DNA of 64,000 bases, taken from positions 1 through 64,000 of the forward strand of contig NZ_JAENII010000013.1 of the NCBI RefSeq assembly GCF_016595525.1, written 5' to 3'. The translations under genes were made by a program, and so were the position numbers. A model generated the notes under the pieces. That model was not told the origin of the DNA. It saw only the letters and a list, made by a program, of their open reading frames with translations, and made no database searches. Of this stretch, positions 31,696 to 47,209 are shown one piece after another (the stretch's first letter is position 1; every line of letters starts with the position of its first letter). The DNA comes from Haloferula rosea. Its GTDB lineage: Bacteria > Verrucomicrobiota > Verrucomicrobiia > Verrucomicrobiales > Akkermansiaceae.

Positions 31696-31911
31696 CTAAT
31701 GTCCCGCGCGGCAAGTTCGACAGCTTTCGGGATATTGGAAGCTATTTTGAAATCAGCTCGCGGCGCTCGTCCGTCCAATGGGTCGCGGATCTTGTGCCCA
31801 ACTGCGGCGTTGTTCCTCGTTCACAAATCTCGATTTGTTCCCTCGTCACGCCTTGGATTTGAAAAGAATCTCTCTCGCGAAGGTCACCGCCCTTGTCGCG
31901 CGGGACATTAG
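31696..31911. mobile_element. MITE-like element, copy 1
   Basis: A 216-bp non-coding element bounded by terminal inverted repeats: CTAATGTCCCGCGCGGCAAG at the left and, reverse-complemented, CTAATGTCCCGCGCGACAAG at the right. It is about 85% identical over its full length to 32640-32854 in the same orientation. The sequence between the outer TA dinucleotides behaves as the element with a TA target duplication, as for IS630/Tc1-type transposons. An internal palindrome CAAATC-tc-GATTTG is conserved. It encodes no transposase. Confidence 0.8.
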
Positions 31912-32630
31912 GGTGGAGTGGGGGATGGCTCGATGCGAGGCCCGCGGTGCTTCCGAATGGGCAGGGTGAGGAGGAGGAACATGATCAAGGCGATGCCCTC
32001 CAGCCAGACGATGTAGGTGGGATGGGGGCCGAGGTGATCGAGCAGGCTCGGGTTGACCGGCTTGCGGGCGAGGAAACCGAAATTGGTCCCGAGGAAGTGG
32101 TTCGCGATGACGGCGACCACGAGGTAGAGGTTCAGCCAAGCGAATGCGATGAGTGGGCTTCGCCACCATGGGCGATCGGCTCTCCAACCGCCGACGATGG
32201 GGAAATACAGGGCGGCTGCTACGACGGCGAAGTGGTGGATGAAGAACGAGAAGAAGGCGGGGTGCGGGTAGCCGACATCGATGGCCGGGGTGGCGATGCC
32301 CTGGATGGTGCCGGCGAGGCCCCAGTAGTAGGTCAGAAGGATCAGGGTATGGTTGCGCGTGATGAGGGCGAAGCCGGCGGTGAATGCCGCGAGGTCGCAC
32401 AGGTGGAGCGGGACGGCATTGTCGATGTCGCTTTCCCGGGTCACCTGGGACCAGGCCCACGAGCTGACGGCGAACACGCTGAGATTGAGGAAGGCGAGGG
32501 TGGACCTTGCCGCCAATTCCGAGGAGCCCCCGCGCCGTCCCATGAGGAGGCAGAGGGCGATGGCGCAGATGCCGGCGACCACGGTCCATGCGTGTTGGCT
32601 GCTGAACGGAGTGAACAGTGGGTCGGGCAT
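31908..32630 (-). CDS. TIGR02206/YwaF-like integral membrane protein
   Basis: A 240-residue membrane protein with about seven hydrophobic segments. It has the family's histidine-containing pattern: [19 protein letters not shown] near residue 70-88, [20 protein letters not shown], and [16 protein letters not shown]. The biochemical role of the family is unknown. The gene lies exactly between the two MITE copies. Its TAA stop is formed by the terminal bases of copy 1, and its ATG is 9 bp from the end of copy 2, so its upstream control region is element sequence. Confidence 0.82.
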
Positions 32631-32639
32631 TGGAAGGAT

Positions 32640-32854
32640 CTAGTGTCCCGCACGGCAAGTTCGTCACCTTTCGGGATGTTGGAAGTTGTTTTGAAGTCAG
32701 CTCGCTGCGTTCGTCCGCCCAATGGGTCGCGGATTTTTTTCCCAACCGCGGCGTTGTTCCTTGGTCACAAATCTCGATTTGCTCCCTTGTCACGCCTTGC
32801 ATCTGGAAAAAACTCTCGCGCGAAAGTCACCGCTCTTTCCGCGTGGGACACTAG
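32640..32854. mobile_element. MITE-like element, copy 2
   Basis: A 215-bp element with termini CTAGTGTCCCGCACGGCAAG and, reverse-complemented, CTAGTGTCCCACGCGGAAAG. It is a direct-orientation relative of 31696-31911 (about 85% identity, one single-base indel). The third-from-TA base changed at both ends together (A-T in copy 1, G-C in copy 2), keeping the terminal pairing. TA flanks each end. The palindrome CAAATC-tc-GATTTG is retained. Confidence 0.8.
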
Positions 32855-46806: not shown

Positions 46807-47195
46807 GCGCCGCTCCCCGGATGATCGCGGTTCGTTTCTTCGGAGGCGGGTCGAGGAAAGTCCGGACACCAAAGGGCAGCGTGCCTTGTGAAAACGAGGG
46901 ACGGGCTTCCGCGAGGAACCCGGACGGAAAGTGCAGCAGAAAACAAACCGCCCTGATTCGTCGGGGTAAGGGTGAAAAGGTGAGGTAAGAGCTCACCGCT
47001 CCAGAGGTAACAATGGAGGCACGGTAAACCCCGCGCGGTGCAAGACAGAACAGGAGAAGGGTCGCCCGCCCGTTGAATCTCCGGGTATTAGTCGCAGTCC
47101 ACTCCGGTGGGCTCCCGCTTCGGCGGGAAGAGAAATGATCGTCGAATCCCGCAAAGGCGGGAGGAACAGAATCCGGCTTACAGGGGAGCGGTCGC
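46807..47195 (+). ncRNA. rnpB: RNase P RNA, bacterial type A
   Basis: The catalytic RNA that trims the 5' ends of precursor tRNAs. Universally conserved blocks occur in order: GAGGAAAGTCCGGAC (46853-46867, CR-I), GAAAGTGCAGCAGAAAACAAACCGCC (46926-46951), a GGTAAGGGTGAAAAGGTG stretch, ACGGTAAACCCCG and GTGCAAGACAGAACAGG, and ACAGAATCCGGCTTACAG (47166-47183, CR-V), which pairs with the first block to form P4. Helix P1 is formed by GCGCCGCTCCCC (46807-46818) and GGGGAGCGGTCGC (47183-47195), which sets the ends. Exact 5' and 3' ends are approximate. Confidence 0.95.
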
Positions 47196-47209
47196 CCCTT
47201 TTCTTCCGG

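Follow-up and report, generated by a model that had tools for sequence, protein, structure and literature searches.

MITEs are usually seen as the ends of a transposon plus expendable filler. The closest described systems are the TA-flanked MITEs, which include Correia/NEMIS, ERIC and the RUP elements of Streptococcus pneumoniae, for which IS630-Spn1 is the proposed mover (PMC2229807). These resemble the elements considered here in being non-coding, 100-200 bp in length and bounded by terminal inverted repeats (TIRs) with 5'-TA-3' ends, in using a TA target, and in the predicted folding of the transcript over its full length (PMC2229807). The REPs, REPINs and RAYT-associated repeats are likewise palindromic and intergenic, and GTAG REPs have been reported in Verrucomicrobia (PMC3733652). 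A further likeness is found in the Thiomargarita MITEs that carry a large group I intron P9 hairpin, in which a conserved hairpin occupies many intergenic sites, some of them within MITE-like ends (PMC4853749).

The window, by which we mean the whole stretch of 64,000 nucleotides analysed (G000:C4, where G000 is the own genome), holds two repeats that work like TA-flanked MITEs of the RUP, Correia and ERIC kind. In the joint explanation that we favour, and regard as probable, they are MITEs that were inserted independently and belong to a superfamily defined by an interior hairpin, the ends of which have repeatedly been replaced. The features are as follows.

31696..31911, minus strand (the hairpin strand): MITE copy 1, with the outer C-TA...TA-G counted in
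31697..31710, plus strand: left TIR of copy 1, TA included, TAATGTCCCGCGCG
31783..31878, minus strand: core hairpin of copy 1, 96 nt (model R1, 91.5 bits)
31824..31837, no strand: apex palindrome of copy 1, CAAATC-TC-GATTTG
31897..31910, minus strand: right TIR of copy 1, TA included, reading TAATGTCCCGCGCG along the minus strand
31908..32630, minus strand: TMEM164-family gene (PF14808), between the copies
32640..32854, minus strand (the hairpin strand): MITE copy 2, with the outer C-TA...TA-G counted in
32641..32654, plus strand: left TIR of copy 2, TA included, TAGTGTCCCGCACG
32727..32821, minus strand: core hairpin of copy 2 (model R1, 102.1 bits)
32768..32781, no strand: apex palindrome of copy 2, CAAATC-TC-GATTTG
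32840..32853, minus strand: right TIR of copy 2, TA included, reading TAGTGTCCCACGCG along the minus strand

The original prediction, of two direct repeats about 85% identical at 31696-31911 and 32640-32854, placed them correctly. Both are non-coding and 215-216 bp long, and they share 86.0% identity with a BLAST E-value of 4.5e-66 for copy 2 against copy 1, so the resemblance is not due to chance. The description of the differences as almost all transitions was overstated, there being 21 transitions against nine transversions and one indel. The TA-flanked TIRs proposed for both copies are exact matches to TARTGTCCCRCRCG (TAATGTCCCGCGCG/TAATGTCCCGCGCG in copy 1 and TAGTGTCCCGCACG/TAGTGTCCCACGCG in copy 2), and the palindrome CAAATC-TC-GATTTG is indeed retained, forming in each copy the apex of a larger hairpin. 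As befits a MITE, which is short and non-coding, there is no transposase inside; the longest frame within the repeats, of about 70 codons, terminates at the element. At the first base of the TIR, which was thought to change at both ends together, copy 1 has A..T, whereas copy 2 and the 15 other aligned copies all have G..C (pair 4-216: GC 16, AU 1). The joint change is real, but it is a single event seen in copy 1 only.

Four further species of the genus carry copies with ends identical to those in the window: G002 has three, G014 eight matches, G017 several and G001 one, counts that mix complete copies with copies interrupted by contig ends. The copies from other species share their CTAG-flanked boundaries with the window copies, and almost every complete copy has them on the same CTAG. 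A BLAST search of the own genome returned the two window copies and no further copy; the structure model adds three cores with other ends (C22:183782, C2:22447 and C22:200341). Solitary CTAGTGTCCCGCGCG ends with no detectable partner end, which represent decayed copies or chance, lie at G014:C94:8876-8890 and G017:C201:22553-22567.

Seventeen full copies can be aligned over their length, including 216-bp relatives from G038, a member of another family, with quite different ends (CTAGTGTGGTGATCGCGAAAT). The alignment gives a structure of 53 pairs, 24 of which have changed on both sides. It contains 66 two-sided cells compared with a shuffled mean of 16; none of 500 shuffles reaches this value, and sliding the partner destroys the signal. 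The consensus folds with -63.3 kcal/mol on the minus strand of the window as against -37.3 kcal/mol on the plus strand. The central hairpin reads Y-GA-N-GA-GG-GA-GC...G(U/C)-GA-CC-GA-N-GA-R-CAA-CGC, a core consisting of three tandem GA/GA mismatches set between Watson-Crick pairs, together with a three-base CAA bulge. We make no claim of a K-turn, in which a three-nucleotide bulge lies near tandem GA pairs, since the bulge is on the wrong side.

The pattern extends to 84 distinct cores, where 93% of the cells pair, 689 cells are two-sided compared with a shuffled mean of 184, and the covariation score is 0.735 compared with 0.184 after shuffling, although this alignment was fitted to the covariance model and so leans towards it. 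The tandem mismatches are retained in 62/84, 64/84 and 50/84 sequences and the CAA bulge in 76/84. The Watson-Crick pairs between the mismatches vary freely; one of them is C-G in 34 sequences and G-C in 40. Within the window, copy 2 keeps 52 of the 53 pairs and copy 1 keeps 47, and the core of copy 1 folds with -18.8 kcal/mol against a mean of -37.6 kcal/mol. Copy 1 is thus decaying and losing the fold. Selection on the folded form had been proposed from the two copies; that comparison is too weak to carry the proposal, because copy 1 breaks six of the 53 conserved pairs, but the fold itself is strongly supported across the family.

A covariance model of 96 positions, built on the hairpin, was used for class and phylum searches. 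Within the class it detects the core in 66 of 384 genomes, from 50 of 171 genera. The core is present in other classes of Verrucomicrobiota too, with 21 of 388 genomes overall at an E-value of 1e-4; these searches were made within the phylum, several of the genomes are MAGs, and the E-values of this short-calibrated model are rough. A pattern scan of the whole genome collection, with a pattern that predated knowledge of the variability of the core, returned two Verrucomicrobiota MAGs only. Searches of plasmids and with IMG/VR patterns gave nothing matching the elements. Nor do the elements belong to a known structured RNA family, as judged from the models of Rfam 15, none of which matches them at E-values up to 2-5. 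Elsewhere in the window a bacterial RNase P class A RNA is found at 46809-47196 on the plus strand (complete match, 215.8 bits). We found no description of these hairpin-core repeats in the literature searched, which lay outside subscription journals.

Many elements of about 270 bp contain two cores in inverted orientation (L182, L190, L198, L199, L202, L203, L204, L128, L130, L135, L136 and L144), and those of 143-222 bp mostly contain one. Possibly the 216-bp type arose by reduction, with GAGCGCAGCGAGC left over from the second hairpin. The shortest, four 143-bp elements of G282 (L173-L176), have 20-bp TIRs, GCAGAAATAACATGATACAA; here the true boundary may lie further out, since the short outer flanks agctta/gcggcg are common to the copies. 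A third end type is present in G014 (L087:2490-2590, G014:C94), in which the same core with a shortened apex is bounded by the termini ACGGAATA... and lacks CTAGTG.

Each lineage has its own TIR around the core, with boundaries confirmed by the points at which the copies cease to match. When the GTGTCCCGCGCG and GTGTAGTCCGCCAAGCAG end types of the own genome are compared, the core is 73-74% identical and the rest 42-52%, which is near background. TA-type ends occur in G002, G024, G027, G219, G150, G376 and G216. In G051 (five of six elements), G057 (two of three), G133 (one of one) and G186 (two of two), GARCCTGTTTGAAAA-like ends go with TNA duplications that match exactly over 3 bp and vary between elements in the middle base, a combination typical of the IS5/IS1031 group. 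The conserved unit is therefore the hairpin and not the ends, which differ between lineages and are those of two or more types of enzyme. A tree of the cores intermixes the TA and TNA classes and implies six changes by parsimony, an estimate resting on a poorly resolved tree, in which the well-supported branches force only one.

The mover of the window type is likely to be an IS630 transposase, judging from the target, which is TA and preferably TA within CTAG, as in the RUP-like IS630-type elements. A transposase supplied in trans would cut at the TIRs and insert the element at TA, preferentially within CTAG. The original assignment to an IS630/Tc1-type enzyme is plausible in this respect, but the carriers G000, G002, G014 and G017 yielded no DDE_3 gene, and no autonomous element with GTGTCCCGCGCG ends, IS630-like or otherwise, was found in the own genome, the genus or 289 genomes of the order, where only elements, decayed copies and solitary ends were seen. 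We therefore infer the mobilization of this end type, for which the partner is possibly extinct or unsampled. An IS630 of G012 has TA-flanked ends (GACCCATTGCCAAAATAAAT; GACCCATTGCCAAAA) that resemble the GACCGTTTGCCAAAA ends of the G002 elements (GACC end type). The ends of an IS630 in G001, CTAGTGCTGCGTC, have only CTAGTG in common with the window type, and the other IS630s of the genus have other ends, so that none matches the window TIRs.

A TA target can be used by IS5-family elements as well. An IS5-family (IS427-like) transposase is thus a possible mover of the TA-type elements of the window in place of IS630, although we consider this rather doubtful. The same core is found elsewhere with IS5-like ends and TNA duplications, an IS5-type DDE_Tnp_1 element with TA-flanked GGGCGTGTTTGAAAAGG ends is present in G051, and the four carriers named above lack DDE_3. 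Set against this are the IS630 ends of G012, with their resemblance to the G002 elements, those of G001, and the preference of IS630 for TA within CTAG, as stated in the title of Tenzen & Ohtsubo (1991) cited in PMC2170065.

Whichever enzyme moves the ends, the conservation of the hairpin must be accounted for. A role in host mRNA has been proposed for the Correia/NEMIS and ERIC elements, and the hairpin might similarly be transcribed with the preceding gene to stabilize, process or terminate its message. Most insertions lie directly behind stop codons, GU cells outnumber AC cells on the core strand (125 versus 32), and both window copies are in the sense orientation relative to the TMEM164-family gene. 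Over the elements as a whole, however, orientation to neighbouring genes shows no bias (37 with and 45 against, from rough gene calls). The insertions at the window locus are not common to the species, copy 1 is losing its fold, and no T-run follows the hairpin as read from the sequence. Such a service to the host is, in our view, unlikely. Selection during propagation fits better than a role at each site, given the decay of copy 1 and the lack of an orientation preference. The folded core strand, as RNA or single-stranded DNA, would then aid propagation, with selection acting on active elements and settled copies such as copy 1 left to decay.

Mutation could also mimic selection. One arm of an imperfect palindrome is copied onto the other by template switching, which produces apparently compensatory changes; the whole elements are quasi-palindromic and many pairs swap GC and CG together. 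The same process would repair non-complementary positions, yet the GA/GA mismatches and the CAA bulge are kept throughout the class while the Watson-Crick pairs between them vary freely, and we regard this explanation as quite improbable.

The history of the insertions can be read from the neighbouring genes. The TMEM164-family gene, the bacterial product of which is a membrane protein, is present in 17 of 18 genomes of the genus and lies between ispH and rlmB, a neighbourhood kept in G014, G002 and G016. In these three the orthologous locus has neither repeat, which indicates that the gene is resident and that the repeats came later. A composite mobile cassette, in which the two copies and the enclosed gene move as one unit, would suit a single gene flanked by copies in direct orientation, but we reject the gene as cargo of a composite transposon, an extremely improbable reading given that it is resident at the same locus in relatives lacking both copies and that the window copies are not each other's nearest relatives.

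The flanks of the window locus are too diverged for a base-by-base comparison with an empty target, and an insertion at hemL was used instead (an aminotransferase gene, named from its sequence and not from a family search). The G002 element begins exactly at the TAG stop of hemL, ATC TAG TGTCCC..., where the own-genome ortholog has an empty ATC TAG and no element; the hemL orthologs that could be read, 17 of 17, end at the same or an equivalent residue. This is the sole empty site at base level for TA-type ends, for which the TA could in principle be the element's own. Target-site duplication is thus seen as TNA with a variable N in the sister lineages and, for the window type, as TA at both ends together with the empty hemL CTAG. 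The reading of the repeats as MITEs at TA sites, as first proposed, holds on the coinciding CTAG-flanked ends, the loci without inserts and this one empty site.

The stop codon at hemL is not an isolated case. CTAG is about ten times rarer in the window than composition predicts (23 observed, 225 expected). For 17 of 20 elements one terminal CTAG supplies the TAG stop of a long open frame, compared with six of 20 control CTAG sites in the window, the count being based on open frames and not on curated genes. CTAG is rare in these GC-rich genomes, and the insertions that survive mostly sit at TAG stops. With the target TA duplicated and a purine as the first base of the element, TA followed by G or A rebuilds a stop codon and the protein is spared, which readily explains why either A or G can stand beside the TA. 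Copy 1 provides an example: the TAA stop of the TMEM164-family gene sits in its right TIR and is made of the TA and the A of the element. Copy 2 starts 10 bp upstream of the ATG of the same gene. The targeting of stop codons is a simple route to insertion beside genes without damage.

What is usually taken for filler is, in these elements, conserved across a phylum, including the non-canonical GA pairs, and it is the ends that change, with two kinds of target duplication. We tentatively suggest, as a possibility, that the selfish unit is the triple tandem-GA hairpin, as a structured RNA or single-stranded DNA, and that this hairpin has spread phylum-wide by repeatedly acquiring the TIRs of resident transposases, IS630-like and IS5-like, so that the interior defines the lineage. 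If such switching is confirmed, the internal fold matters to the spread of the parasite and the way in which new transposases are adopted can be tested. With the core model these repeats, a family absent from Rfam 15, can be annotated in Verrucomicrobiota genomes.

Comparison with the known systems brings out what is particular to this superfamily. REPs measure 20-40 bp and bear a GTAG or CGTC tag, whereas the present elements span 143-277 bp with long TIRs and a duplicated TA or TNA; identity with REPs or REPINs is rejected on these differences in size, termini and target duplication. The Thiomargarita MITEs are from a different phylum and are likened by description, and the present core has no Rfam match. 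The GARCCTGTTTGAAAA-like ends and 3-bp TNA duplication of the IS5-family (IS1031-like) MITEs are those seen in G051, G057, G133 and G186, but here the elements with IS5-like ends bear the same hairpin core as those with TA-type ends. RUP, Correia/NEMIS and ERIC are characterized in the review consulted by their TIRs, within a single genus or a small number of genera (PMC2229807). This is not the situation in the elements described here, in which a single core extends through a phylum within differing TIRs and with two kinds of duplication.
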